In this document: positions 1-45,727 of the stretch, piece by piece | Layout: the number at the start of each line of letters is the position of its first letter | Numbering within the stretch: position 1 is the stretch's first letter | DNA from: Acidobacteriaceae bacterium | GTDB taxonomy: Bacteria; Acidobacteriota; Terriglobia; Terriglobales; Acidobacteriaceae | Assembly (NCBI GenBank): GCA_903970395.1 | Contig: CAJCIM010000131.1 | Coordinates: 1 to 54,742, forward strand | Direction: 5' to 3' | Length of the DNA: 54,742 nucleotides | The notes under the pieces: generated by a model | What the model saw: the letters and a program-made list of their open reading frames with translations, nothing else | What the model was told of the DNA's origin: nothing | The model's database searches: none | Translations under genes and position numbers: made by a program

Positions 1-399
1 ATGCCTGAAAAAATTCAGAAGACCGACGCCGAGTGGCGCGCCGAGCTCACCCCTGAGCAGTACCACATCCTCCGCGAGAAGGGCACCGAGCGCCCCTTCA
101 CCGGTGCCCTCGTCAACAACCACGACGACGGCTTCTACCACTGCGCCGCCTGCAACGCCCCGCTCTTCAAATCCGGCACCAAGTTCGAATCCGGCTCCGG
201 CTGGCCCAGCTTCTTCGAACCCATCTCGCCGGACGCCGTCGAGCTCCACGAAGACAACACCTTCGGCATGAAGCGCGTGGAAGTGACCTGCGCCAAATGC
301 GGAGGCCACCTGGGCCACGTCTTCCCCGACGGCCCCAGAGACAAAACCGGTCAACGCTACTGCATCAACTCCGCCTCACTGGCCTTCGAAAAACAGTAA
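1..399 (+). CDS. msrB: Peptide-methionine (R)-S-oxide reductase MsrB
   Basis: Reduces the R-epimer of methionine sulfoxide in proteins back to methionine, normally in the cytoplasm with thioredoxin as reductant. The 132-residue protein is full length for the family. Two CxxC pairs (Cys48/Cys51 and Cys97/Cys100) form the structural zinc site. The GxGWPSFF block lies near residue 65, and the resolving end RYCINSASL carries the catalytic Cys121. The ATG is the first base of the window, so its ribosome binding site and any upstream partner cannot be seen. It is followed after 8 bases by a small gene on the same strand, so the two are probably co-transcribed and end at the hairpin at 700-738. The family assignment is very secure. 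Confidence 0.97.
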
Positions 400-2697: not shown

Positions 2698-3198
2698 GTG
2701 CTCTCACGCGCGGCCAATCTGCCTCGGAGATCCGAACTCTTGTCCTCCCTGCGGGAAAACGAAGCACTCACAAAAGCCTCCTCGGACGCGTCCGCAAAAG
2801 CCGCACCGCGCCCCAGTTGGGCGATCAGCATCACCAGCCTCCTCTTCATCCTGCTCCAGAGCGCCTGCACCTTCGTCATGGCCGTCAGCGGCGTCCGCGT
2901 TCTCATTGGCCTCAGCGCCCTTGCTGCCGCAGCCGGCCTGGGCCGCCCCGCCTCAGGCTTCCACGCCAACATCTATCGCATCCCCATGATGGTCCTCGCC
3001 CTGGGCGGCGCGCTGCTCAACCTCTATATGATCTGGCGCATCCGCTCGCTCCGTGCCCGCCCCTCGTCGCAGTGGCGCATGGCCCCTGTCGGCCCTGGAA
3101 AGATCCGCTCCGAAAACTTCCAGATCGCCCTCTCCATCATCACCCTCATCCTCGTCGCAGCCGAGCAGATCACCCACCTCATCGTCCACAACGCCTGA
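2698..3198 (+). CDS. Hypothetical integral membrane protein
   Basis: A protein of up to 166 residues that I do not recognise. Hydrophobic segments are visible near residues 42-62 (ISITSLLFILLQ...), 66-84, 95-113 (MMVLALGGALLNLYMIW) and 143-160 (IALSIITLILVAAEQ), so three or four membrane helices are likely. A short basic stretch (RIRSLRARPSSQWR) lies between the last two. The start is uncertain: the GTG at 2698 opens the longest form, while a TTG at 2740 has a GGAGA sequence at a better distance. The coding strand has ordinary codon use, and the membrane pattern argues against a chance frame. No neighbour hints at function. Confidence 0.6.
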   Translation: MLSRAANLPRRSELLSSLRENEALTKASSDASAKAAPRPSWAISITSLLFILLQSACTFVMAVSGVRVLIGLSALAAAAGLGRPASGFHANIYRIPMMVLALGGALLNLYMIWRIRSLRARPSSQWRMAPVGPGKIRSENFQIALSIITLILVAAEQITHLIVHNA

Positions 3199-3644: not shown

Positions 3645-3679
3645 TAAGAAAACGAAGCGGTCGCCTCGCAGCGACCGCT
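3645..3679 (-). terminator. Rho-independent terminator of the anti-sigma/ECF/DoxX operon
   Basis: A 9-bp inverted repeat (AGCGGTCGC at 3656-3664 and GCGACCGCT at 3671-3679) with a 6-base loop. On the minus strand it is followed by TCGTTTTCTT. It lies about 107 bases past the anti-sigma stop codon, in the right orientation to end that leftward operon. Confidence 0.75.
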
Positions 3680-3785
3680 ATCTCGTTTCGTATCAATATC
3701 ACCGGATCTAAGATGAACCGAATCAATATCTTGGCCGACTCTGCAACCTGTAACCCATTGATTTCGCAGATCATGCCCCAAAAGA

Positions 3786-4049
3786 TCAAGGGGGGGAGGC
3801 CCCCCGGCCACCATCCGTGCCCAGCTCCGCCGCCAGCCGCGCGTGCAGCCGCTCGCTGAACCCAGCAGGCAGCTCAAACACCCGCTCGTCCGCCGTCAGC
3901 ACAATAATGTTCCGCGTCGAGTCCAGAATCGCCGAGCAGATCTCGCAGGTCTCCAGGTGCTTCTGGATCACCTCCTGCTCCTCCGCCGTCAACGTGCCGT
4001 CAAGATAACCCGAGATGAGGTTCCACACGTGCTTGCACTCGATCACCAT
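3786..4049 (-). CDS. Zinc-finger (zf-HC2) anti-sigma factor
   Basis: An 87-residue protein that should hold the neighbouring ECF sigma factor inactive. The N-terminal half is a zinc-binding anti-sigma domain: ECKHVWNLISGYLDGTLTAEE followed by HLETCEIC, the H-x3-C-x2-C signature. The C-terminal half (RVFELPAGFSERLHARLAAEL) lacks a membrane helix, so it looks like a soluble sensor rather than a transmembrane one. The ATG at 4049 overlaps the sigma gene stop by 7 bases, and AAGAGGAGG inside the end of the sigma gene is its ribosome binding site, so the two are translationally coupled. The ligand is unknown; the bufferin genes next door make copper or another thiophilic metal a reasonable guess. 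Confidence 0.88.
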   Translation of the reverse strand: MVIECKHVWNLISGYLDGTLTAEEQEVIQKHLETCEICSAILDSTRNIIVLTADERVFELPAGFSERLHARLAAELGTDGGRGASPP

Positions 4050-4669
4050 GGAAACCACCTCCTCTTCGCCGTAGCCGTAACCGTTCGTAGCTGTGGCGCC
4101 AACTGCTTCTGCAGCATCATCCGGGCACGATGCAGCCTTACCTTTACCGCCGGAACGCTCAACGATAGCGCCTCGGCCGTCTCATTCACGCTTAACTCCT
4201 CCACATCGCGCAGCACAAACACGCTGCGATAGATCTCCGGCAGCGCCTCAACCGCGCTGGCGATCATCTGCTTCACCTCGCTGCGCTCCAGCGCCTCGGA
4301 CGGAACCTCGCGCCAGTCCCGCAGCAGCGCCGGAGAAACCGCGCCCTCCTCGTCGGGAGGAACATCCAGAGACTGCATCGGGGCGGCACTCTTCCGCCGC
4401 AGCCGGTTGCGCGCCTCATTCAATGTGATGCTGATCAACCACGTCCCGAACTTCGACTCCGCACGAAAGCTGCTGAGCGCGCGAAACGCCTTCAGAAAAG
4501 CCTCCTGCGCAACATCTTCCGCATCGGCCTCGTTCTTCATGTACGACAAGGCCATCAGGTACACGCTGCGCTCATGCGGACGCACCAGCTCGTGATAGAG
4601 CTGCGTCTCGCCCGCCAGAATCGAGGCAATCATCTTGGCCTCATCTCCGCTGTCGCGCTGCGTATCCAT
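4043..4669 (-). CDS. ECF-type RNA polymerase sigma factor
   Basis: A 208-residue group 4 sigma factor that redirects RNA polymerase to specific promoters. Region 2 is at about residues 30-97 (SYMKNEADAEDVAQEAFLKA, then SKFGTWLISITLNEARNRLRR). Region 4 is at about residues 140-190 (LPEIYRSVFVLRDVEELS, then ALSLSVPAVKVRLHRARMML), with a clear helix-turn-helix. It starts 5 bases after the DoxX stop and overlaps the anti-sigma gene, so it is the middle gene of a three-gene operon. Sigma factors beside bufferin genes control those genes in Caulobacter; the paired promoter-like motifs at 5213-5241 and 5339-5367 suggest the same here, plus autoregulation. Confidence 0.95.
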   Translation of the reverse strand: MDTQRDSGDEAKMIASILAGETQLYHELVRPHERSVYLMALSYMKNEADAEDVAQEAFLKAFRALSSFRAESKFGTWLISITLNEARNRLRRKSAAPMQSLDVPPDEEGAVSPALLRDWREVPSEALERSEVKQMIASAVEALPEIYRSVFVLRDVEELSVNETAEALSLSVPAVKVRLHRARMMLQKQLAPQLRTVTATAKRRWFPW

Positions 4670-4674
4670 CGCGA

Positions 4675-5142
4675 TTACACAGACTCCTTGAGCTTCCTGG
4701 CGATCAGCGTATCCACCGCGAAGTAACCAGCACCGAAGATCAGGATCATCAGCGATGCGAACAGAAACGTATACGGCGAAGCCGCCAGAAAGGTATCAGG
4801 GTCCTTGAAGAACGCCAGCAGCGCGTCACGATCGGCCACGATATAAGCAACCAGCATGTCGCCAGCGAGCAGAAACGCGATCGGTCGAGAGAACAGACCC
4901 AGTATCAGCAGAATCCCACCGACAAGCTCCAGCCCGGCGACAAACGGAGCATTGATCCCCGGAAACGGGATGTTCAGGTTCTGGAAGACATGGATAAATC
5001 CAGCCAGGTTGTGCAGCTTGCCCCATCCTGTCTGGGCAAACTGGAATCCCCAATACAGCCGCACCCCCAGCAGCATCGGCGATTGCAACATATTCAGTAG
5101 TTTTACTGCGCGTTCGTACATCGGCAACACGGTCTTCAGCAT
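4675..5142 (-). CDS. DoxX family membrane protein of the bufferin locus
   Basis: A 155-residue inner-membrane protein with four likely membrane helices (around residues 20-38, 62-82, 85-105 and 125-145). It shows the DoxX features RLYWGFQFAQTGWGKL, then FPGINAPFVAGLELVGGILLILGLFSRP. DoxX proteins are often found with MNIO/bufferin genes and with thiol or redox systems; their chemistry is poorly defined. The ATG at 5142 was chosen because GGAG stands before it and the family-like MLKTVLPMYERAV starts there; the frame is open upstream without such a signal. It is the first gene of the leftward operon, 5 bases ahead of the sigma factor gene. Confidence 0.9.
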   Translation of the reverse strand: MLKTVLPMYERAVKLLNMLQSPMLLGVRLYWGFQFAQTGWGKLHNLAGFIHVFQNLNIPFPGINAPFVAGLELVGGILLILGLFSRPIAFLLAGDMLVAYIVADRDALLAFFKDPDTFLAASPYTFLFASLMILIFGAGYFAVDTLIARKLKESV

Positions 5143-5212
5143 GATCTTAGCTCCATATTCCCTAAAAGTGGACAGTCTATCTGCTCTCTCGGTCTCCCGT
5201 CGGCACATTGGG

Positions 5213-5241
5213 TTAGAGACGCCTTCCGGAGATTGGTTACA
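5213..5241 (-). promoter_or_regulatory. Putative ECF promoter for DoxX-sigma-anti-sigma operon
   Basis: On the minus strand TGTAACC (5241-5235) is followed after 17 bases by TCTAA (5217-5213). The AAC core of the -35 element and the TCWAA -10 element resemble RpoE-type ECF promoters. The same pair, with the same spacing, precedes bufA on the other strand. The DoxX start lies about 65-70 bases downstream. Recognition by the sigma factor encoded at 4043-4669 is inferred. Confidence 0.45.
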
Positions 5242-5338
5242 ATCCGTTTCCCCCTGCACCGCGTATCACGGTAGATACATTTATGTGCGGAGGGCTACAA
5301 TTCCCGTTAGGCTTTATTGCCTCACTGTAACGGAAGCC

Positions 5339-5367
5339 TGTAACCATTCCCACACAGATGTTTCAAA
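5339..5367 (+). promoter_or_regulatory. Putative ECF promoter for bufABC
   Basis: TGTAACC (5339-5345), 17 bases, then TCAAA (5363-5367). It matches the minus-strand pair at 5241-5213 in both elements and spacing, as expected if one ECF sigma factor reads both arms of the locus. The bufA start codon is about 150 bases downstream. Confidence 0.45.
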
Positions 5368-5517
5368 CAATGCGGCTGCCGAGAATCGGGAGCCTGACCT
5401 ACGCTCCTCAATCGGGCCATAACACCTCGATTCACCGCCTCTCTACTTCGTTGGAGCAGGTCTCGACGCCAACGCCCAGGCCTTTGCCTGGCCCAACCCA
5501 AGGAAAAGGACACTTCT

Positions 5518-5811
5518 ATGAAGACCAACTCCATTAAGTCGTTTGCTCTGGCCGCTGCTTGTACGGGCCTGCTCGGTGGTACCTCCGCTCGTCTCAACGC
5601 GCAGCCCACAACCGCTGCCAGCAACAACACGCCGGTCGCCGGCGTGATGCTCGTCAAGCAGGACGCACCCGCGCTCCCCAAGCACTCCTGCAAGGGCAAG
5701 AATGACTGCAAGGGTCAGGGCGGTGGCGATGCCAAGCACGCCGGCAAGAACAGCTGCAAGGGCAAGGGTGCCTGCGCAACCGACGGCTCCAAGCCCTCGA
5801 AGACTGTCTAA
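5518..5811 (+). CDS. bufA: Bufferin-type RiPP metallophore precursor (BufA-like)
   Basis: A 97-residue exported, cysteine-rich precursor peptide. Residues 1-28 form a signal peptide (basic start, hydrophobic core, probable cleavage after LNA). The mature part has only four cysteines, in two matching units: HSCKGKNDC (Cys58, Cys64) and NSCKGKGAC (Cys80, Cys86), both C-KGK-x2-C, separated by a Gly/Lys/His linker. In characterised bufferins an MNIO enzyme turns such cysteines into metal-binding heterocycles and the product holds copper in the periplasm. The KGK/CKG repeats recall the BufA2 group. AAGGA lies ahead of the ATG. It is followed 86 bases later by bufB. The metal bound here is an inference. 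Confidence 0.88.
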   Translation: MKTNSIKSFALAAACTGLLGGTSARLNAQPTTAASNNTPVAGVMLVKQDAPALPKHSCKGKNDCKGQGGGDAKHAGKNSCKGKGACATDGSKPSKTV

Positions 5812-5897
5812 CGAACTCAGCTTCTCTGCTGGAGGCCTGAGCGTCCCTCAAGCCTCCAGCAATCTCCTGCTTCACTCCCCTGCCTACGGAGATACCC

Positions 5898-6779
5898 ATG
5901 CCAGCCAATCGCTTTAACAACTTCACCGACTACGGCGTCGGTATTGGGCTCCGCGTCCCGCACTACGAGCACATCTTCTCCAAAAAGCCAGTGGTTGACT
6001 GGTTTGAGATCATCTCCGAAAACTACATGATCGACGACGGTCGCCCTCTGCGCCTCCTCGACCAGATCCTCGACCAGTATCGCGTCGTCCAGCACGGTGT
6101 CTCCATGTACTTCGGCTCCGCTCAGGAGCTCAACCCGGATCATCTGCGGCGCATCAAGGAGCTCACCCGCCGCACCAAAACGCCATGGCTCTCCGACCAT
6201 CTCTGCTGGGGCTCCGTCGACGGACGCTACACACACGACCTTCTGCCTCTGCCCTACACCTTCGAAGCCGTCCGCACCACCGCCGAGCGCATCCGCCAGG
6301 TGCAGGACACACTGGAGATTCCCGTAGCCGTCGAGAACGTATCCAGCTACGCCGAGTACCACGAGTCCGAGATGACCGAGTGGGAGTTCCTTAACGAGGT
6401 CATCCACGCCGCCGACTGCGGCATCCTACTCGACGTCAACAACATCTATGTCTCCTCGCAGAACCACAGCTTCGACCCCGCAGTCTACGTCGACGCCGTC
6501 CCCGCTGAGCGAGTCGCGCAGATTCACATCGCAGGTCACTCCAAGTTTGAGAAGTACATCCTCGACACCCACGATCATCCGGTCCTGGACCCCGTCTGGG
6601 CTCTCTACGCACGCGCCATCGACCGCATCGGTCCAACCGCAACGCTGCTTGAGTGGGACGACAACATCCCCAGCTTCGATGAGGTCCACAACGAAGCTCT
6701 GAAGGCCAACAAGTATCTCAAGGCCGCAGCCGATAAGATCGCAGCAGCAGCCAATCAGCCCGAAGAGGTCCTCGCATGA
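5898..6779 (+). CDS. bufB: MNIO family RiPP-modifying oxygenase BufB (DUF692)
   Basis: A 293-residue multinuclear non-heme iron-dependent oxidase of TIM-barrel type that should modify cysteines of the bufA peptide. Family blocks occur in order: DWFEIISENYM (residues 34-44), QHGVSMYFGS (65-74), LSDHLCWG (98-105), VAVENVSSY (143-151), LLDVNNIYV (177-185), QIHIAGH (208-214), DTHDHPV (223-229) and LLEWDDNIP (250-258). His66, Glu146, Asp179, His210, Asp223/His225 and Glu252 are the likely iron ligands, by family analogy. The ATG follows CGGAGATACCC. The last four bases overlap the bufC start (ATGA), so the enzyme and its partner are coupled. No signal peptide is present, so it acts in the cytoplasm before export of the precursor. 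Confidence 0.95.
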   Translation: MPANRFNNFTDYGVGIGLRVPHYEHIFSKKPVVDWFEIISENYMIDDGRPLRLLDQILDQYRVVQHGVSMYFGSAQELNPDHLRRIKELTRRTKTPWLSDHLCWGSVDGRYTHDLLPLPYTFEAVRTTAERIRQVQDTLEIPVAVENVSSYAEYHESEMTEWEFLNEVIHAADCGILLDVNNIYVSSQNHSFDPAVYVDAVPAERVAQIHIAGHSKFEKYILDTHDHPVLDPVWALYARAIDRIGPTATLLEWDDNIPSFDEVHNEALKANKYLKAAADKIAAAANQPEEVLA

Positions 6780-7657
6780 ACCTCCTTGAGTTGCAGCGCC
6801 GCATGGCCGAAGACGTTCGCCGCCCTTTGACCGATGACTTCGACATGCAGCAGTCGACCGAAGACGGAACTCCGCTCAGCGACCTCGCAGGCAGCTACAT
6901 CAAGCCCAATGATCGCCTCAGCTCCTTTGAGCGCCTGGAGATCTACAACCGTCAGTACTGGTTTCGCGTCATCGGCGCCGTCTCAGAAGACTACCCTGCG
7001 CTCAACGCATTGCTCGGCGAGAAGCGCTTCGACGCGCTCGTCCTTGCGTACCTCCGCGAGAATCCATCCGTCTCATGGACGCTCCGCGACCTCGGCAAGA
7101 AGCTCCCCGCATGGCTGAGCGAGCACCCCACATTCGCCGGTCGCCGCCATCAGCTCGCTGCCGATGTCGCCGCTCTCGAATGGGCCTACGTCGACGCCTT
7201 CGACGGCCTCAAACTGCCGCCACTCAACGCCGAAGACCTTCAGGGTCTCGGCCCGGATACGCGCCTCGCGCTGCAACCACATCTGCAACTGCTCCAGCTG
7301 CGTTATCCCGTTGACGAACTCGTTCTTGCCGTGCGCCGCGACGCGCCCGAGACCGAGATCGTCAGTAACGCATCCATGCAGCGCAAGCAGGTTGAACGCA
7401 TTAGCCTGCCCACGATGAAGCGCGAAGCCGTCTACCTGGCCGTGCACCGCTACGACGACATCGTCTACTACCGCCGCATCGACCGCGAAGCCTTCACCAT
7501 GCTGACTTCGCTCCGCGACGGCGGCACCCTGGCCGAGGCCCTCGGCACCGCATTCCACCGCAGCCGCCTCAGCGCCGAAAAGCAGGCTGAAAAGATTCAG
7601 TCCACCTTCGCGCACGCTGCGGAACTCGGTTGGTTCTGCCGTGCCGACAAGCATTAA
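6776..7657 (+). CDS. bufC: BufC (DUF2063) partner of the MNIO enzyme
   Basis: A 293-residue protein of the HvfC/BufC family. The N-terminal DUF2063 domain (about residues 1-105: LLELQRRMAEDVRRPL, then RLSSFERLEIYNRQYWFRVIGAVSEDYPAL) is typically followed by a second globular domain, which here covers about residues 130-285. Related proteins act with the MNIO enzyme and are thought to bind the precursor leader. The start overlaps the bufB stop by four bases. The stop codon overlaps that of the opposing MFS gene by three bases, so no terminator fits between the two convergent operons. No DoxX gene follows; it lies instead in the divergent arm. Confidence 0.92.
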   Translation: MNLLELQRRMAEDVRRPLTDDFDMQQSTEDGTPLSDLAGSYIKPNDRLSSFERLEIYNRQYWFRVIGAVSEDYPALNALLGEKRFDALVLAYLRENPSVSWTLRDLGKKLPAWLSEHPTFAGRRHQLAADVAALEWAYVDAFDGLKLPPLNAEDLQGLGPDTRLALQPHLQLLQLRYPVDELVLAVRRDAPETEIVSNASMQRKQVERISLPTMKREAVYLAVHRYDDIVYYRRIDREAFTMLTSLRDGGTLAEALGTAFHRSRLSAEKQAEKIQSTFAHAAELGWFCRADKH

Positions 7658-27070: not shown

Positions 27071-28519
27071 ATGATCGCCAGGCAAATCCGTACAGTGGTC
27101 AGTAGGGTTTTCCTGGGCAGTATCTCTGCCTTGCTGCTCTCGCTCCTCGCATTCCATCTCCACCTCAATCTCTCTTCAGCAACCTCGATTCACCTGTTTC
27201 TCGTAGTTGTCATTGCGCTTCGCTGGGGGTTTCTCGAGTCCAGCATCGTCTCAATCGTCTCTGTTGTCTGCCTCGACTACTTCTTCACAGAACCGCTGTT
27301 CGCCCTTTTCATCACAGACTCGCGCGACTGGGTAGCCCTTCTTACTTTTGAAGCGGCTGCGCTTCTCGTCAGCAGGCTCTCGAACCGGGTGATCCGGCAT
27401 GCGCGCGAGTCTGAGGCGCACCAGGAGCGTTTGCAGAAGCTGTACGAGTTGAGCCAGCATATTCTCCTGCTCGATCAGATGGCGACCGTCGAACAGCCGC
27501 TCGCGGATCTCATCCGTTCCAACCTGCAAGTACAAGGCGTTGCTCTGTGGAACGCTCTTGACATGCGCATGTGCAGAAGCGGAGCCTGCGACCTTAGCGA
27601 CAAGGACATCCATTCCGTCTTTTACAAGGAAGCAGACGGCGATGACCTTCCCGCCGGCATATCCCGGAGGGTGCTGCGATCAGGAACGCGCGCGATAGGG
27701 GCTTTGGCCTTATGCGGACACTCTCTAGACCCCGTATCTGTAAATGCCGCAGCATCCCTGGCCTCGGTTGCAATCGAGAGGGCCCGTTCCTTTTCCACGG
27801 AAGCGAACGCAGAGGCAGCCCGGCAGAGTGAACAACTTCGGTCTGCCATACTGGATGGCTTGGCGCACGCCTTCAAGAGTCCTCTCACAACAATCAGGGT
27901 GTCGAGTTCGGGTCTACTCGCCATGAACACCCTGTCCGGCTCCGAGGAAAAGTTAGTCGGCCTGATTGATCGGCATGCGGGCCAGCTAAGTGATCTAACA
28001 AATCATCTCCTCCTCACAGCTAGGCTGGACGGAGCCGATCTAAAGCTCTACCGCGAAGACATAGATATCGCTCAGCTGATCGAGAGCAGCGTCGAGGCTT
28101 GCTCACAGGATTTGGGAGACCATGCATTCGAGATTCAGGGACTCGCTGAACCCAGCGTAGTCCGGGCAGACAGAAAGCTTCTCAAGATGGCTCTTGTCCT
28201 GGTACTCGACAACGCCGTGAAGTACAGCAGTCCTGGCTCTCCGGTAGTCGTTGGCGTAAAGCAGCAGGCAGCTGAGGTCGCGCTTACTGTCAGCAACGAA
28301 GGTTCCTTTATTCCCCTTGATGAGAGAGAGAAGATCTTCCAGCGCTTCTATCGCTGCAATGGGTCGGTCGGAAACATCTCTGGCACTGGCATCGGTCTCT
28401 CCGTCGTCAGGCGCATCACCGAGGCACATCAGGGACGTGTCTCGGTCGATAGCGATCGTTCGAATGGAACGGCGTTTACCATCACACTGCCTCGAATCGC
28501 GAGAAAGGACTCGATGTGA
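27071..28519 (+). CDS. KdpD-like sensor histidine kinase 1
   Basis: A 482-residue membrane kinase. Residues about 12-105 hold four closely packed helices of the DUF4118/KdpD transmembrane type. A GAF-like region covers about 125-240, then a HisKA domain with LDGLAHAFKSPLTTI (phospho-acceptor His266) and an HATPase domain (LVLDNAVKYSSPGSP, then GTGIGLSVVRRITEAH). It lacks the N-terminal KdpD and Usp domains, so it is not a potassium KdpD. An in-frame stop just upstream fixes the ATG at 27071 as the earliest start; the AGAGGAG sequence lies rather far ahead of it. It overlaps the regulator gene by four bases. Divergent from receptor 2, it probably senses a signal linked to that uptake system. 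Confidence 0.92.
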   Translation: MIARQIRTVVSRVFLGSISALLLSLLAFHLHLNLSSATSIHLFLVVVIALRWGFLESSIVSIVSVVCLDYFFTEPLFALFITDSRDWVALLTFEAAALLVSRLSNRVIRHARESEAHQERLQKLYELSQHILLLDQMATVEQPLADLIRSNLQVQGVALWNALDMRMCRSGACDLSDKDIHSVFYKEADGDDLPAGISRRVLRSGTRAIGALALCGHSLDPVSVNAAASLASVAIERARSFSTEANAEAARQSEQLRSAILDGLAHAFKSPLTTIRVSSSGLLAMNTLSGSEEKLVGLIDRHAGQLSDLTNHLLLTARLDGADLKLYREDIDIAQLIESSVEACSQDLGDHAFEIQGLAEPSVVRADRKLLKMALVLVLDNAVKYSSPGSPVVVGVKQQAAEVALTVSNEGSFIPLDEREKIFQRFYRCNGSVGNISGTGIGLSVVRRITEAHQGRVSVDSDRSNGTAFTITLPRIARKDSM

Positions 28520-29214
28520 CACTGAAGAGTAAAGTCCTGGTAGTAGAGGATGACGCTGGAATTCGCCAAAGCCTCTTTGAGACTCTCGGCGCGCTTGGAT
28601 TTGCCGTCGGAGAGGCCATCAACGGAGAGGAGGCGCTCGTACGCCTTCGCATGGTCGACTACGATGCAGTATTGCTGGACATCAACATGCCCGGCATGGG
28701 CGGCAAAGAAACATGCCGGAGAATCTTCCAGAGCTACCCTCAGCTTCCTATTATTATGTTGACTGTTCGCGATGAAGAAGCGGACGTCGTAGAAGCTCTC
28801 GATTCGGGAGCATGGGACTACATCACAAAGCCCTTCCAGATTGGAGAGCTGACGGCGAGGCTCCGCGCTGCCATTCGTCGTCCAGGCACTCAGGCAGCGA
28901 AGCCGGAGATCATCGTCGTGGTCGGCGACATCACCCTGGACGACACTAGTCGCCGCGTCGAGAAGCGCGCCAGGGAGATCCACCTTACTCCGAAAGAGTA
29001 TGAAACTCTCCGATTCCTGATTGAACATGCCGGTCTCCCCGTGCGCCACGAAGTTTTGCTCCGCTCCATCTGGGGTCCGACATATGGCAACGAACGCGAG
29101 TATCTCCGCGTCGTCATCAATCAGCTACGGAAGAAACTCGAAGACGATCCCAGTCATCCAACGTACATCCTCACCGAAACACACATCGGCTATCGCTTTC
29201 GAGGAGAGGACTGA
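28516..29214 (+). CDS. OmpR/KdpE-type response regulator 1
   Basis: A 232-residue regulator starting with GTG that overlaps the kinase stop as GTGA. The receiver domain has VEDD (10-13), the phosphorylated Asp55 in VLLDINMPG, and Lys105 in YITKPF. The usual GADDY motif before it reads GAWDY, one acidic residue fewer than in its paralogue. The C-terminal winged helix reads IHLTPKEYETLRFL, then REYLRVVINQLRKKLEDD and YILTETHIGYRF. It is the natural partner of the kinase and a candidate for binding the 18-bp motif upstream of both kinase and receptor. Confidence 0.94.
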   Translation: MTLKSKVLVVEDDAGIRQSLFETLGALGFAVGEAINGEEALVRLRMVDYDAVLLDINMPGMGGKETCRRIFQSYPQLPIIMLTVRDEEADVVEALDSGAWDYITKPFQIGELTARLRAAIRRPGTQAAKPEIIVVVGDITLDDTSRRVEKRAREIHLTPKEYETLRFLIEHAGLPVRHEVLLRSIWGPTYGNEREYLRVVINQLRKKLEDDPSHPTYILTETHIGYRFRGED

Positions 29215-38662: not shown

Positions 38663-40117
38663 ATGAGAACTGGACGGAAAATTCTAAGAGCGCTGCAGAC
38701 CGCGGCGGCAGCATCCGTCATCCTCTTGGCGACGTTCCTTGTCTATCAGACTCACGGCAAGGCCCTGACAGCTGGCTTGGTCGATCTCGTCCTGGTGATG
38801 TTGATCGCCTTCCGTTTTGGCTTCGTCGAAGCAGTTGCATCGGCTTTAGCTTCGGTAGCATGTCTGGACTTCTTTTACATGGCTCCCGTGTTTTCGCTCT
38901 CCGAGCGAGATCCACAAGACTGGCTATCCTCGGTAGTGTTTGTGATCATCGCGCTGACAGCAGGACGCTTCGTCACACAGGTCAAAGAGAAGGAAGCGCG
39001 GACCGAAACCGAACGACGGAGACTAGAGAAGCTCTATCTGACCAGTCGAGACATCATTCTGCTGAACGCACGTGAAAACGTCGTCTCTCAACTGACCCAC
39101 CTGATTATCGATACTTTTTCAGTTGATTTTGTAGGTATCTGGGATGTTCGTGCCTCCCTCATGGAAAAGAGCGGAGTCGTTCGCCTCAGCGACGAAGAGG
39201 TAAGGGCAGTCTATTTTGCTGATCGCTCCAGCGACGATCCGGCCGCCCGCAGATTTACAAGGGTGCTTCGATTGGGAACCAGGAGCATCGGCTCGCTCTG
39301 CATCATCGGTTCAGCAACAGGAGATCTTCTCGACGCCCGCTCCGTGGATGCAATCGCGTCGCTCTCTGCCATCGCGCTTGAGCGGGCGCACTCCTTCATC
39401 TCCGAGAGCAATGCCGAAGCGATCGCGCGCAGTGAGCAGTTGCGTTCGACCGTGCTCGACGGGCTGGCCCACGCGTTCAAAACACCGCTGGCGACAATTC
39501 AGAGTGCCAGTTCAGGGCTTCTCGAAATAAATCGTCTGACAGGGGCCGAGGCGGAGTTGATCACAATCATCGATGAGCAGGCTACACGATTGGCCAGGCT
39601 TACAACTCAGGTACTTCGAACCGCGAAACTCGATCAGAGCGATCTCCGGCTGAAACAGGAGCGGATTGAACCGGACCAGCTCTTTCAAAGTCTTCGGGAC
39701 GATCTGGGCGATCTACCGAATAGCAATGCACTCGTCATGCAAGACATAACAGACGGGATAATGACTTGGGGCGACGTTCGTCTGGTAAAGATGGCCATCT
39801 TGCAGTTGCTCGACAATGCAATCAAGTACGCGAGTCCTGGTTCCACAATCATATTGAAGGTCGAAGCCAGCGACTCCGAAGTTCTCTTCAGCGTAGCGAA
39901 TGAAGGGTCATTCATTCCTCCAGACGAGCGCTTGCGAATCTTTGATCGTTTTTATCGATCGCCTGGCTCCCAATATCGCGCAGCGGGAACGGGTATCGGG
40001 CTGGCGGTGACCAAGAAGATTCTTGAGGCCCACCGAGGTAGAGTCTGGGCTGAAAGCCCTACTGACCAGACTACCGTGTTCTTTTTGGCTCTGCCTAGGG
40101 TTTTGAGGGAGGTTTGA
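38663..40117 (+). CDS. KdpD-like sensor histidine kinase 2
   Basis: A 484-residue paralogue of kinase 1 with the same architecture. Four membrane helices lie within about residues 10-105 (ASVILLATFLVYQ, LVDLVLVMLIAFRFGF, VASALASVACLDFFYMAP, VVFVIIALTAGRFV). A GAF-like region follows, then HisKA with LDGLAHAFKTPLATI (His270) and HATPase with LQLLDNAIKYASPGS and GTGIGLAVTKKILEAH. The H-box HAFK[ST]PL is shared with kinase 1 and differs from the common SHELRTPL. The ribosome binding site at the ATG is weak. It abuts the regulator gene with no gap and is divergent from receptor 3. Confidence 0.92.
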   Translation: MRTGRKILRALQTAAAASVILLATFLVYQTHGKALTAGLVDLVLVMLIAFRFGFVEAVASALASVACLDFFYMAPVFSLSERDPQDWLSSVVFVIIALTAGRFVTQVKEKEARTETERRRLEKLYLTSRDIILLNARENVVSQLTHLIIDTFSVDFVGIWDVRASLMEKSGVVRLSDEEVRAVYFADRSSDDPAARRFTRVLRLGTRSIGSLCIIGSATGDLLDARSVDAIASLSAIALERAHSFISESNAEAIARSEQLRSTVLDGLAHAFKTPLATIQSASSGLLEINRLTGAEAELITIIDEQATRLARLTTQVLRTAKLDQSDLRLKQERIEPDQLFQSLRDDLGDLPNSNALVMQDITDGIMTWGDVRLVKMAILQLLDNAIKYASPGSTIILKVEASDSEVLFSVANEGSFIPPDERLRIFDRFYRSPGSQYRAAGTGIGLAVTKKILEAHRGRVWAESPTDQTTVFFLALPRVLREV

Positions 40118-40816
40118 TTGGAAGAGTGTATCGGAAAAATTCTCATCGTTGAAGACGACACCGCTCTCCGGCGAAGTCTGCTTACACCCCTTTCGATGTT
40201 GGGTTTCAGCGTTGCAGAGGCGGGCAGCGGTGAAGACGCCTTAGCCATGATTCGGATGTCCAGCTACGAAGCCGTTCTGCTGGACATCAACATGCCCGGC
40301 ATCGGAGGCATCGAGACCTGCCGCCGACTCCGCAAACTGTTCACTCGGCTGCCCATCATCATGCTCACGGTCCTCGATGAGGAAGACGACAAGGTTGAAG
40401 CTTTGGATGCGGGTGCGGACGACTACGTCACCAAGCCTTTCAAGATGCGAGAGTTGACCGCCAGGATACGCGCCGCCGTTCGAAGATTTCGCGCACCGTC
40501 TCTCCCTGCACAGATGCCAATTGTGAATGGAGAGATTGTCCTCGATCCTGTCCGCCACCGTGTCGAACGCTCTGGAGTTGAAATCCACCTTACCCCCAGA
40601 GAGTTCGACGCGCTCCACTCCTTGATGAATCGCGCCGGGCGTCCCGTCACACATGCGAAGTTGCTATCAGAACTGCGCGGCCCTGGCGCGGCTATGGAAC
40701 GTGGCTATTTGAGGGTCCTGATAGGACAGCTTCGGAAGAAGCTGGAGAAAGATCCCGCACAGCCCGAATACATCTTAACCGACAGCTACATCGGATACCG
40801 CTTCAGAGAAGCCTAA
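40118..40816 (+). CDS. OmpR/KdpE-type response regulator 2
   Basis: A 232-residue regulator starting with TTG directly after the kinase stop; GGGAGG precedes it. The receiver has VEDD, Asp56 in VLLDINMPG and Lys107 in GADDYVTKPF, so the phosphorylation site is intact. The winged helix reads IHLTPREFDALHSL, GYLRVLIGQLRKKLEKD and YILTDSYIGYRF. The DNA-contacting part resembles regulator 1 closely, consistent with both reading the same 18-bp motif; cross-regulation between the cassettes is possible. The motif also occurs 45 bases past its own stop, ahead of the protease gene. Confidence 0.94.
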   Translation: MEECIGKILIVEDDTALRRSLLTPLSMLGFSVAEAGSGEDALAMIRMSSYEAVLLDINMPGIGGIETCRRLRKLFTRLPIIMLTVLDEEDDKVEALDAGADDYVTKPFKMRELTARIRAAVRRFRAPSLPAQMPIVNGEIVLDPVRHRVERSGVEIHLTPREFDALHSLMNRAGRPVTHAKLLSELRGPGAAMERGYLRVLIGQLRKKLEKDPAQPEYILTDSYIGYRFREA

Positions 40817-42294: not shown

Positions 42295-42321
42295 TAGCAA
42301 CGGATATTCGAGGTGACGACG

Positions 42322-44505
42322 ATGCGGTTCAAGACTTTGGTACTTGCAATAGGTGTAGCTCTACCTGCTGTCATCCCTGTCCGGGCGCAGACATCGGTAC
42401 AGCCCGCAGAACACCTCTTGCAAAGAGTGATGCCGCATCTCGCCTCGCAATTTCATCTCAAACTCCAGCCATCGAAGGACAACTCTGATTCATTTCGCAT
42501 CTCTGGCACTCCTGGTGCCATTCAGGTCAAGGCAGCCACAACGCCCACCCTCCTCTACGGCGTCAACTGGTACCTGAAGTACGTTGCACATTTGAGCGTA
42601 TCCACCAACGGCATGCAGCTGGGACGACCTGGCATGGTCTTGCCAGCACCGCCGGAGCCGATCGAAAAACCCGCTCTCTACAAATGGCGCTACGCGCTGA
42701 ATGAAAATACAGACGGCTATTCGACCCCCTACTGGGACGAAGCCCGCTGGCAGCATGAGATCGACATCCTTGCGTTGTCAGGGACGAACGCGGTTCTGAT
42801 CGAACGGGGCGCAGACCTGATCTACTACGAGATGTTTCGTGAGGCAGGCTATAGTGACGCGGCCATCCGTAGATGGGTCACGCAACCCGCGCACCAGAAC
42901 TGGCAGCTGATGGGCAATATGTGCTGCTTCGTTGAGCCAATCTCGATGGAGCTGTTGCACAAGCGGGCGGACTCCGCGAAGAGGCTCATCGCGATGCTGC
43001 GCGAACTTGGGATCGCTCCCGTCCTGCCCGGCTACTACGGCATTGTGCCTGCGGACTTCGCAACTCTGCATCCCGGCGCACACGTTATAACGCAAGGAGA
43101 CTGGAACGGTTTTACGCGCCCTGGCTGGTTGGACCCCCGCGATCCTAACTTCAAAATCCTCTCGGAGTCCTTCTATCGTCATCAGCATGCTTTGTATGGT
43201 GATGCCCCGATCTATGACATGGAGATATTTCAGGAAGGCGGCGCTGCGGGCGACGTTCCCGCTGGCGAAGCTGCAAAGCTCATTCAAGCGTCACTCGCGC
43301 AAGCGCATCCCGCAGCACTGTGGATGATGATGGCATGGCAGAACAATCCCATGCCCGCGGTGATGGATGCTGTCGATACGAGCCATGTGCTGGTCGCAGA
43401 TATCGAACAGGGACGCATTCCGCGTGATAATCGAGATCAGCAGTTCCGCGGCGCACCGTGGCTCTATGGCGGCCTGTGGGAGTTTGGCGGCCGCACCACA
43501 ATGGGTGCTCCTCTCTACGACTACGCCGTGCGCATGCCGAAGATGGCGAAGATGCCCGGCAACCATATCGTCGGCACAGCACTGTTCACCGAGGGCCTCG
43601 ACACAAACCCCTTCGCGTTCGACCTCTACACCGAGATGGCCTGGCACTCCGAGCCAGTTGATCTGGCGGCGTGGACCGGACAGTATGCGTCGCGACGCTA
43701 TGGCAAAGAAGATGTACACGCCAGCCGCGCATGGAAGATATTGCTGAACACCGCATACGGATATCGCGCCGGCACTGCATCTGGTTCTGGCGAACTCGAT
43801 GCAGCTCACGACTCACTCTTTGACTCTCAGCCTTCATTGACGTCGCTGCATGCTGCAACCTGGTCACCCGACAGGCTGCACTATCGCCCGGAAGATCTGC
43901 GACCGGCTTTGACCGAGTTGTTACAAGTTTCGCCAGAGCTGCGAACCAGCGAGACCTATCGCTACGATCTGGTCGATGTCACGCGGCAGGTCCTGGCCAA
44001 CGAAAGCCGCAGCATGTTGCCGAAGATTCGTGCAGCATACGAGTCCGGTGACCGGCCGGCGTTTGTCACCCTCACCCATCAGTGGCTCGCTCGAATGCAG
44101 TCGATGGACACGCTGCTGCAAACCAACCAGTACTTCCTTCTCGGTCGATGGCTGCAGTTCGTGCCACCTTGGGCGTCTTCTCCGAAGGAGCTGGAACAGC
44201 TCAACTATGACGCGCGCTCGATTCTTACTACCTGGGGAGACCGCACTGCGAGCGAAGCCGGCCTGCATGAGTATGCGAACAAGGATTGGGCTGGCCTGAC
44301 AGCCGGCTACTACATGCCCAGATGGAAGATGTACTTTGATTCGCTTCTCGTGTCACTCGATACGAAGTCGCCACCAACGCCCATCGATTGGTACGCGTAT
44401 GGCGACACATGGAATCGAAGGACCACCACATATGCAACGGCTCCTGTTGGACAAAGCTACACAATTGCCATGAAAATCGCACGTGACTTGAACCTCGCTC
44501 CCTGA
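42322..44505 (+). CDS. Exported GH89 alpha-N-acetylglucosaminidase-like enzyme
   Basis: A 727-residue glycosidase that should release terminal alpha-linked GlcNAc (or a related sugar). A signal peptide ends near residue 23 (VIPVRA). A small N-terminal domain (FRISGTPGAIQVKA, LLYGVNWYL) precedes the catalytic barrel: NENTDGYSTPYWDEARWQ, LPGYYGIVPADF, QGDWNGFTRPGWLDP, YDMEIFQEGG with the likely acid Glu305, and GTALFTEGLDTNP with the likely nucleophile Glu424. An all-helical C-terminal domain follows, as in NAGLU. The ATG at 42322 was preferred to the GTG nine bases upstream because AGGTG fits it. It is followed 13 bases later by the acetyltransferase-like gene, so they form an operon. Confidence 0.9.
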   Translation: MRFKTLVLAIGVALPAVIPVRAQTSVQPAEHLLQRVMPHLASQFHLKLQPSKDNSDSFRISGTPGAIQVKAATTPTLLYGVNWYLKYVAHLSVSTNGMQLGRPGMVLPAPPEPIEKPALYKWRYALNENTDGYSTPYWDEARWQHEIDILALSGTNAVLIERGADLIYYEMFREAGYSDAAIRRWVTQPAHQNWQLMGNMCCFVEPISMELLHKRADSAKRLIAMLRELGIAPVLPGYYGIVPADFATLHPGAHVITQGDWNGFTRPGWLDPRDPNFKILSESFYRHQHALYGDAPIYDMEIFQEGGAAGDVPAGEAAKLIQASLAQAHPAALWMMMAWQNNPMPAVMDAVDTSHVLVADIEQGRIPRDNRDQQFRGAPWLYGGLWEFGGRTTMGAPLYDYAVRMPKMAKMPGNHIVGTALFTEGLDTNPFAFDLYTEMAWHSEPVDLAAWTGQYASRRYGKEDVHASRAWKILLNTAYGYRAGTASGSGELDAAHDSLFDSQPSLTSLHAATWSPDRLHYRPEDLRPALTELLQVSPELRTSETYRYDLVDVTRQVLANESRSMLPKIRAAYESGDRPAFVTLTHQWLARMQSMDTLLQTNQYFLLGRWLQFVPPWASSPKELEQLNYDARSILTTWGDRTASEAGLHEYANKDWAGLTAGYYMPRWKMYFDSLLVSLDTKSPPTPIDWYAYGDTWNRRTTTYATAPVGQSYTIAMKIARDLNLAP

Positions 44506-44518
44506 ACTGGAAAGTGCC

Positions 44519-45727
44519 ATGTTGTTGGAGACAAAAAGATCAATGGACAATGCAGATCTCTCGCCAGTCGTAGATCGCGATGACAACATTGCGAAGCCTC
44601 ACCGCTGGCTCTCGCTCGACGTCCTGAGAGGGCTGACGATCGGGTTCATGATCATGGTGAACAACAATGGCGGAGGATCGACCGCCTATTGGGCCATGAG
44701 GCACGCAGATTGGAACGGCTTTACACCAACCGACCTGGTCTTCCCCACGTTTCTCTTTCTGGTGGGCATCTCAACCGTATTTTCTACAGAGGCCCGTCTC
44801 GCAAAAGGCGATAGCCGCAGGAAGATCTTTGGGCACACCCTTCGTCGCGCAGCAACTCTATTCCTCCTCGGGTTGCTCGTAAACAGCTTTCCACTGTTCC
44901 ATCTCGACAAGTTGCGCGTATACGGAGTGTTGCAACGCATCTCCATCTGCTACCTCGTCATCGCTGCTCTCTACTTGCAGCGCGTCACATGGAAGGGCCT
45001 GTTGACGATCTCCGCAACGGCGCTCATCGGATACTGGGCGCTGATGCGCTTTGTTCCGGTCCCCGGATATGGAGTTCCAAACCACCAGATACCTCTGCTC
45101 GACCACGACAGAAATCTCGTGGCATGGTTGGATCGACAGATCTTTTCAGCCAACCATCTGTACGAAAGGACTCGCGACCCCGAAGGCCTGCTCAGCGACC
45201 TTCCCGCACTGGCTACGGCGCTCTTTGGAATGTTGACAGGCATATGGCTTCGTTCAAGCCGAAGCATCGTTAACAAAGCGAAGGGCATCGCGCTCGCCGG
45301 GCTCACGAGTCTGCTGCTTGGCGGACTCTGGAACTTTGAGTTCCCCATCAACAAAAAACTCTGGACGAGTTCGTACGTGCTCTATGCCGCAGGGTGGAGT
45401 CTGCCGTTGCTGGCTCTGGCAATTTGGGCCGTCGATGTCCGTGGCGCGAAGAAGACGGACGCAGAACGGAGAAGGCAATTTATGCCTCTCCTTGTCCTTG
45501 GAACAAATGCAATCGCCGCGTACGTCTTCTCGGAGTTGTTGCCAGGGGCGTTAGGCCTGATACACCCCGAACCGGGGGTGCCATTGCCGCGTTGGGTGTA
45601 TCTAAAGATCCTGGACGCGATTCAATATCCACCTGTAGCGTCGATGGTGTATTGCGTCGCATTTGTGAGCATCTGCTGGCTTGCAGTCTATGTCTTATAT
45701 CGCCGCAGGGTCTTCTTCAAAATATGA
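44519..45727 (+). CDS. HGSNAT-like membrane acyltransferase family protein (DUF5009)
   Basis: A 402-residue protein with about ten membrane helices. It has the signature of the heparan-alpha-glucosaminide N-acetyltransferase family: LSLDVLRGLTIGFMIMVNN, then HADWNGFTPTDLVFPTFLF with the conserved His (about residue 62), RRAATLFLLGLLVNSFP, and YGVLQRISICYLV. The human relative uses acetyl-CoA on one membrane face to acetylate glucosamine on the other, making the substrate for alpha-N-acetylglucosaminidase. The immediately preceding gene here is of exactly that GH89 family. An acetyl transfer to an amino sugar is therefore plausible, but bacterial members are uncharacterised to my knowledge. 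The ATG at 44519 follows GGAAAG. Confidence 0.88.
   Translation: MLLETKRSMDNADLSPVVDRDDNIAKPHRWLSLDVLRGLTIGFMIMVNNNGGGSTAYWAMRHADWNGFTPTDLVFPTFLFLVGISTVFSTEARLAKGDSRRKIFGHTLRRAATLFLLGLLVNSFPLFHLDKLRVYGVLQRISICYLVIAALYLQRVTWKGLLTISATALIGYWALMRFVPVPGYGVPNHQIPLLDHDRNLVAWLDRQIFSANHLYERTRDPEGLLSDLPALATALFGMLTGIWLRSSRSIVNKAKGIALAGLTSLLLGGLWNFEFPINKKLWTSSYVLYAAGWSLPLLALAIWAVDVRGAKKTDAERRRQFMPLLVLGTNAIAAYVFSELLPGALGLIHPEPGVPLPRWVYLKILDAIQYPPVASMVYCVAFVSICWLAVYVLYRRRVFFKI

Follow-up and report, generated by a model that had tools for sequence, protein, structure and literature searches.

A captophorin-type gene cluster of Acidobacteriaceae with a four-cysteine precursor and a putative zinc anti-sigma/ECF sigma switch

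The stretch of DNA analysed here (54,742 nucleotides, hereafter the window) belongs to a 3.82 Mb draft genome and carries, at positions 3645..7657, a locus that its sequence identifies as a captophorin (bufferin-type, MNIO-DUF2063) cluster. Six genes lie at 3786-7657 in two units that face outward from one intergenic region (Table 1). One unit, bufABC, encodes a short precursor with a signal-peptide-like hydrophobic N-terminus (judged by hydropathy), directly followed by an MNIO (DUF692) maturase and its DUF2063 partner; the other encodes a DoxX membrane protein, an extracytoplasmic function (ECF) sigma factor and a zf-HC2 anti-sigma factor. All six open reading frames claimed in a preliminary description of this DNA are present, and Pfam names all but the precursor above its cut-offs. 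The ATGA overlap of the MNIO and DUF2063 genes given in that description is real (6776-6779), and the ATG of the zf-HC2 gene (4049) overlaps the 3' end of the ECF sigma gene.

Table 1. Genes and predicted elements of the locus and its immediate flank, in window coordinates.
Feature	Position	Strand	Evidence
Conserved small membrane protein, possible accessory part	2698..3198	+	converges on the anti-sigma gene
Terminator-like hairpin behind the doxX-sigma-anti-sigma operon	3656..3679	-	10-pair stem, 7 G-C, then TCGTTTTCTT; consensus match only
Soluble zinc-type anti-sigma factor, zf-HC2, 87 residues	3786..4049	-	PF13490 48.5 bits
ECF sigma factor	4043..4669	-	PF04542 67, PF08281 56.9; TIGR02937 106.5 bits, over cut-off 42.9
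DoxX membrane protein	4675..5142 (likely ATG 5142)	-	PF07681 65.7; NF050144 HvfX 51.7, under cut-off 80
Predicted ECF promoter, doxX-sigma-anti-sigma arm, TGTAACC-N17-TCTAA	5213..5241	-	motif match
Predicted ECF promoter, bufABC arm, TGTAACC-N17-TCAAA	5339..5367	+	motif match
Precursor, BufA2-related, 97 aa, mature Cys 58, 64, 80, 86	5518..5811	+	NF050166 24.5 bits; alignment with relatives
MNIO (DUF692) maturase, BufB type	5898..6779	+	PF05114 359.2; NF050167 349.6 bits, over cut-off 310
DUF2063 partner of MNIO (PME1/RRE type)	6776..7657	+	PF09836 64.7 bits, over cut-off 27.2

We compared the locus with its named relatives, the best 80 of 436 confirmed MNIO loci. The closest named MNIO among these 80 came from Granulicella paludicola (91%), and other top relatives came from Granulicella, Edaphobacter, Terriglobus and further Acidobacteriaceae; acidobacteria are named for 77 of the 80, the other three being metagenome-assembled genomes or bins titled Betaproteobacteria, Verrucomicrobia and Methylacidimicrobium. 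On these grounds we call the host an acidobacterium, which the preliminary description had raised as a possibility. By tblastn, the 80 relatives yielded a BufA-like open reading frame in 78, DUF2063 in all 80 and DoxX in 73; because these genes recur together, the gene set is not a chance assembly. An MNIO match was present in 75 of 297 genomes drawn evenly from the phylum (E<=1e-20) and in 37 of 120 genomes of the family (E<=1e-30), one of which (G378) was merely 35% identical. With the thresholds applied, the window's own genome shows a single MNIO gene and a single DUF2063 gene. The cluster is thus real, recurrent in Acidobacteriaceae and mechanistically legible.

The sigma/anti-sigma genes recur with the cluster. 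An ECF and zf-HC2 pair (>=50% identity) was found in the flanks examined of 37 of the 80 named loci, or 30 of the 57 for which both flanks were full. Among these 37 loci, 15 are co-directional (bufABC-doxX-sigma-anti-sigma), 14 are divergent as in the window and 8 show five other orders; since several gene orders occur, the pair follows the cluster through rearrangement. Loci lacking the pair in the flank examined are common, and are mostly clusters with six-cysteine precursors and doxX behind bufC.

The maturase passes the cut-off of NF050167 (MNIO family bufferin maturase). Its DUF2063 partner scores 42.3 bits against NF050145 HvfC, under the cut-off of 142. Asp255 directly follows a conserved E-W-D in 79 of 80 aligned MNIO sequences, the window included, and alignment with 3BWW (E-R-D-F) places it at the position of FonB-Phe250, a site reported to hold Phe in Lys-Cys MNIOs and Asp in Cys-Lys MNIOs such as BufB2 (PMC12668002). 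MNIO-DUF2063 products characterised so far are said generally to bind Cu (PMC12668002), and the cluster described here, carried by soil acidobacteria, probably makes a copper-binding peptide.

The precursor differs from the described Buf1 and Buf2 precursors. The DUF2282 domain of Buf1 precursors gave no match at E<=1 in a Pfam scan, and all seven acidobacterial precursors scanned, four of them with six cysteines, fell under the BufA2 cut-off (six at 19.1-36.2 bits, one with no match). The majority six-cysteine core of the relatives resembles KHxCKGKNDCKGQGGCKSSDNGCKGKNSCKGKGGCATDG; the core in the window, KHSCKGKNDCKGQGGGDAKHAGKNSCKGKGACATDG, lacks cysteines 3 and 4 of that form. The rest of the four-cysteine core, CKGKN-x-CKGQGG...CKGKG, is strongly conserved, and CK motifs are present. 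Counting cysteines after residue 25 in the 80 named loci, we found six in 50, four in 25, eight in two and five in one; for the remaining two no precursor was found in the DNA examined. A scan of the window's genome returned the precursor itself as its strongest match and no other strong match.

On the MNIO tree, the main four-cysteine group forms one 22-row branch that includes the window (support 99/96), and two more four-cysteine pairs (L067/L071 and L076/L086) lie elsewhere, on a tree in which some deeper forks are weak. Because four-cysteine forms occupy separate places, loss of the middle cysteine pair appears to have occurred more than once. Buf2 precursors are reported to carry six cysteines in 90% of cases and twelve in the remainder (PMC12452194), so the four-cysteine precursor lies outside that description. 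It shares with BufA2/Buf2 the signal peptide, the CKG repeats, the bufABC order and the 'Cys-Lys' MNIO Asp, but has four mature cysteines instead of six or twelve. Judged by sequence, it is a four-cysteine relative of the six-cysteine BufA2 peptides and not BufA2 itself. We therefore class the cluster as captophorin-type and its precursor as BufA2-related, since the MNIO has the Cys-Lys Asp, although the precursor scores under the BufA2 cut-off. The bufferin-type assignment made earlier thus stands for the maturase and its DUF2063 partner, whereas the precursor is a weaker match.

The putative anti-sigma factor carries a CHCC zinc-binding anti-sigma (ZAS) motif, C5-x25-H31-x3-C35-x2-C38. All 40 zf-HC2 homologues taken from the named loci keep these four residues, and 36 of them also keep H7. 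No 19-residue stretch exceeds a Kyte-Doolittle value of 1.1, that is, hydropathy indicates no membrane span; together with the PF13490 match, this bears out the soluble zf-HC2 anti-sigma factor of the preliminary description. The protein scores 32.7 bits against the RsrA equivalog model TIGR03988 (cut-off 62.5). Its AlphaFold model has a predicted template modelling (pTM) score of 0.48; sigma/anti-sigma complexes take the first 8 places among 13 Foldseek matches, no match being significant, and a profile of 25 picked homologues found RsiW alone in the PDB (E 0.006).

Both units are preceded, within the shared intergenic region, by outward sites of the form TGTAACC-N17-TCWAA. We assessed their placement with a relaxed form of the motif, sought within 300 bp upstream of genes in the window and the 80 named loci. 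This form preceded doxX in all of the loci in which doxX is the first gene of its unit (20 of 20, the window included), but in 0 of 54 where doxX follows bufC, and it occurred in none of 81 MNIO coding controls. It also preceded bufA in 24 of the 42 sigma-linked loci, again including the window (sigma-linked here meaning any ECF and zf-HC2 tblastn match). Across the window's genome, TGTAAC-N18-TCNAA occurs six times and its backwards control twice. A small stress-sensing regulatory pair seems to switch on both the cluster and itself from one spot on the DNA.

Of the other matches in the window's genome, one ends 26 bp upstream of the start codon (ATG) of msrP (NF003767, 432 versus 207 bits), which is followed by msrQ (NF003831, 149.8 versus 130 bits). 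The test set comprised 95 regions upstream of msrP in the 120 family genomes, two more at contig ends having been dropped. The strict motif was present in 9 of 31 regions from MNIO-positive genomes, versus 0 of 64 from the others (Fisher 1.7e-5), and in 0 of 95 on the antisense strand. Counted by genus, the contrast is 6 of 23 versus 0 of 46 (p 8e-4), with a few genera in both classes. Another gene of the msr group lies in the window itself: msrB (TIGR00357, 182.5 bits) occupies 1-399 (+), about 3.4 kb from the anti-sigma gene, and as the contig starts at its first base, its promoter region falls outside.

Another strict site in the window's genome (L121:1944-1916, minus strand) precedes a gene for a beta-propeller lactonase with a signal peptide (1833-703, PF10282). 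Lactonase homologues also stand behind strict sites in L285 and L287, and one is linked to an ECF-zf pair in L295. Beyond the cluster, we picked by eye 13 sites from the 131 strict matches in the family (L280-L290, L292 and L293, from seven MNIO-positive genomes), a lead and not a count. Two of the 13, those in L285 and L287, precede lactonase homologues and six show no theme; as for the others, three precede what we take to be the same NmrA-like gene, one a presumably DUF1223-like gene and one a presumably MsrB-like gene (L292, G356), labels given by eye. Two further matches in the window's genome (L123 and L124) looked like chance.

The explanation we consider best, and hold to be probable, is a stress-switched captophorin cluster under ZAS/ECF control whose sigma factor also drives msrPQ. 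It builds on observed gene content, family membership, recurrence, and the pattern and position of the promoter motif; we infer the pairing of sigma factor with promoter, redox or metal sensing by the anti-sigma factor, the chemical modification and copper as ligand. At rest, the soluble CHCC zinc anti-sigma factor would hold the ECF sigma factor. A thiol-reactive signal, whether a surplus of copper or of a comparable soft metal or an oxidant of the disulfide or hypochlorous acid (HOCl) type, would open the zinc site and free the sigma factor, which would then fire the two outward TGTAACC-N17-TCWAA promoters. The first would drive doxX-sigma-anti-sigma, giving autoregulation, and the second bufABC. 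MNIO and DUF2063 would turn cysteines of the CK-rich precursor into thiooxazoles before Sec export, and the exported, modified peptide would serve as a periplasmic copper chelator. In trans, the sigma factor would activate msrPQ, whose products would repair oxidised methionine of periplasmic proteins.

Several observations weigh against this explanation. The precursor's NF050166 score (24.5 bits) is a weak match, against a BufA2 cut-off of 60. At the promoters, 18 of the 42 sigma-linked bufA genes lack the relaxed motif, which also precedes bufA in 10 of 35 loci without a nearby sigma gene, and when the window by itself was shuffled, two matches at <=1 mismatch were reached in 7 of 100 cases. 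Across the 120 family genomes the strict motif has 131 matches versus 218 for its backwards control, so that we rejected it as a genome-wide marker; a lone match therefore means little, and it is position relative to genes that constitutes evidence. At msrP, 22 of the 31 genes from MNIO-positive genomes lack a strict site, the relaxed motif gives a weaker contrast (15 of 31 versus 7 of 64), and no match is seen on the bufA side in 5 of the 9 genomes whose msrP has a strict site. Finally, the switch is not bound to bufferin, since a close ECF-zf pair is also present in at least six genomes that are MNIO-negative. In L295, which has no bufferin MNIO match, outward motifs are flanked by a lactonase gene on one side and by cytochrome b561 and molybdopterin-oxidoreductase genes near the pair on the other; in L300, likewise without a bufferin MNIO match, genes of these two kinds lie just ahead of it. 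Because the pairs sit by redox genes in such genomes, the switch resembles an envelope-redox device of general use, often with bufferin attached.

The 18 bufA genes without the relaxed motif are not uniform. Seven of them carry TGTTACC or TGTTACT at the same spacing, and eight more carry TGTAAC with a differing -10 part; at bufA, six co-directional six-cysteine loci show TGTTACC and a seventh shows TGTTACT. If the specificity of the sigma factor had shifted, msrP sites in related genomes would be expected to follow, but TGTTACC, TGTGACC or TGTCACC at strict spacing occurred in 0 of 95 msrP upstream regions, leaving co-variation of promoter and sigma factor unsupported.

The same motif misses could indicate that the sigma/anti-sigma/doxX arm is a mere neighbour and that bufABC is under other control, and the presence of the ECF-zf pair in the flanks of under half of the named relatives (37 of 80) points the same way. 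This we regard as very improbable, since the matching promoter pattern on both arms of the window, the 20 of 20 versus 0 of 54 split at doxX and a linkage that survives rearrangements all argue for joint control. A second alternative concerns the peptide: with cysteines 3 and 4 of the six-cysteine core lost, and a score under the BufA2 cut-off, the precursor might be a bufferin in decay, which has ceased to be modified or to bind metal. Decay, however, accords poorly with a four-cysteine form that is held through a 22-row branch and appears again at two further positions on the tree, with the strong conservation of what remains of the core, or with the intact reading frames of MNIO and DUF2063, and we judge it distinctly unlikely.

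The strongest competitor is a response to oxidants (HOCl or disulfide stress) in which the thiooxazole peptide and DoxX act mainly against oxidation and copper is secondary. The anti-sigma CHCC motif is of the RsrA type, msrPQ and beta-propeller lactonase genes are among the motif sites, and in Haemophilus RpoE2, which has a ZAS anti-sigma factor, drives msrAB together with the doxX/MNIO/DUF2063 operon upon HOCl stress (PMC7907618). Against this stand the meningococcal sigma-E/MseR system, reported not to respond to H2O2, diamide or singlet oxygen (PMC2893595), the general Cu binding ascribed to known MNIO-DUF2063 products and the copper sensitivity of Caulobacter cells that have lost sigF (PMC3511200, PMC8224329). 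We consider the oxidant response a serious but rather unlikely alternative to the copper-centred captophorin cluster.

Like the Caulobacter sigma-F/NrsF system (CC3252-CC3257; CCNA_02999-03001; CCNA_02834-02833), the locus combines an ECF sigma factor, MNIO, DUF2063, DoxX, a precursor and a -35 GTAACC. The Caulobacter sigma-F site is GTAACC-N16-CGAA, and its regulon includes bufferin-type operons, a second MNIO operon controlled in trans among them, and an MsrPQ-like cluster (PMC3511200, PMC8224329); bufferin-type and MsrPQ genes under one sigma factor are predicted likewise here. The differences are that the Caulobacter precursor is of the DUF2282 (Buf1) type, with a spacer of 16 to CGAA, while that of the window is BufA2-related, with N17 to TCWAA; that doxX belongs to the buf operon there and to the sigma operon here; and that, unlike NrsF, which is listed with six membrane spans, the anti-sigma factor here is a soluble CHCC zinc protein and so no NrsF. 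In Caulobacter, sigF-CC3252 (nrsF) forms one operon and CC3254-CC3257 another, with locus numbers that run opposite ways (PMC3511200), from which the two units appear to be divergent. The preliminary description had set the divergent layout of this locus against a single operon in proteobacteria; divergence is true of the window, but it is shared by the 14 acidobacterial loci noted above alongside 15 co-directional ones, and the contrast with Caulobacter falls away because that locus itself appears divergent.

The anti-sigma factor has closer counterparts elsewhere. The Neisseria rpoE operon NMB2140-NMB2145 and Haemophilus RpoE2/HrsE likewise pair an ECF sigma factor and a soluble CHCC ZAS anti-sigma factor with DoxX/MNIO/DUF2063 genes; the former encodes DoxX, unknowns, sigma-E and MseR, the gonococcal counterparts being named MNIO and DUF2063 (PMC2893595, PMC2954202), and both regulons include msrAB (PMC2893595, PMC2954202, PMC7907618). 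The ZAS spacing C5/H31/C35/C38 equals that of MseR (C4/H30/C34/C37) and of RsrA (C11/H37/C41/C44) (PMC2893595). RsrA, whose N-terminal cysteine is needed for redox sensing and release (PMC4960319), is also soluble with C-x25-H-x3-C-x2-C, but the protein described here scores under its equivalog cut-off and the partner regulon differs. Both systems belong to a different phylum; Neisseria has one operon with the -35 element GTAAGGTT, and the Neisseria and Haemophilus precursors carry EGKCG (Lys-Cys), whereas the window's is CK-type. Thus, the soluble zinc anti-sigma factor, put forward earlier as another mode of sensing, has precedents in MseR (PMC2893595) and HrsE (PMC7907618). In sequence terms, the acidobacterial system joins the Caulobacter -35 box and MsrPQ to a Neisseria-type anti-sigma factor.

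The host does carry the system into Acidobacteriota, as the preliminary description had suggested on condition of such a host, but the phylum is not wholly new, since DUF2063 was noted in an acidobacterium in 2009 (PMC2954202). Many DUF692 clusters have also been counted in a soil metagenome that includes acidobacteria (PMC8692599). In those portions of the open-access literature that we covered, we found no description of an acidobacterial bufferin or MNIO cluster. Sigma and NrsF genes are reported in Buf1 but not Buf2 clusters (PMC12452194); unlike Buf2 as described there, the BufA2-related clusters found here often come with sigma and anti-sigma genes of their own. New here are such a Buf2-like cluster, the recurrent four-cysteine precursor, a predicted acidobacterial regulon and a conserved small membrane protein. 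The preliminary description had missed the pair of outward promoters, the connection to msrPQ and the change to four cysteines.

Homologues of this membrane protein, whose gene adjoins that of the anti-sigma factor, occur in 33 of the 37 named loci with a zf homologue at >=50% identity, and in 26 the gene is convergent and directly behind the zf gene. C57, H89, R94, L118, R119, W126, R127 and E156 are invariant in 44 sequences; we found no significant Pfam, PDB or Foldseek match, and the AlphaFold model has a pTM of 0.47. It is conceivable, though we lean against it, that the whole forms an Acidobacteriaceae envelope-damage regulon, in which the CHCC-ZAS/ECF pair, perhaps with the Cys/His membrane protein as an envelope-side sensor, would jointly switch thiooxazole copper peptides of a new four-cysteine class together with DoxX, methionine-sulfoxide repair by MsrPQ and a beta-propeller lactonase of the periplasm. 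On that reading, the pairing of captophorin with Msr repair under ECF sigma factors with interchangeable anti-sigma types (NrsF, ZAS) would hold generally across phyla.

In the literature covered, bufferin-type clusters with described regulation are proteobacterial. A locus family with precise promoter predictions offers a test, in another phylum, of whether copper peptide and methionine repair form one envelope-stress programme, whatever the anti-sigma factor. The apparent repeated loss of the middle cysteine pair also predicts which cysteines a Buf2-like peptide can do without. This prediction is relevant to the modification pattern of Buf2, which according to PMC12452194 has yet to be identified.

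Elsewhere in the window lies a gene for the protein adenylyltransferase SelO (PF02696; 32173-33708, minus strand). SelO has been linked to oxidative stress elsewhere. The window also holds two similar pairs of a DUF4118 histidine kinase and a response regulator (27071-29214 and 38663-40816, plus strand), and an alpha-N-acetylglucosaminidase (NAGLU) gene that adjoins a heparan-glucosaminide N-acetyltransferase-like gene (42313-45727, plus strand).

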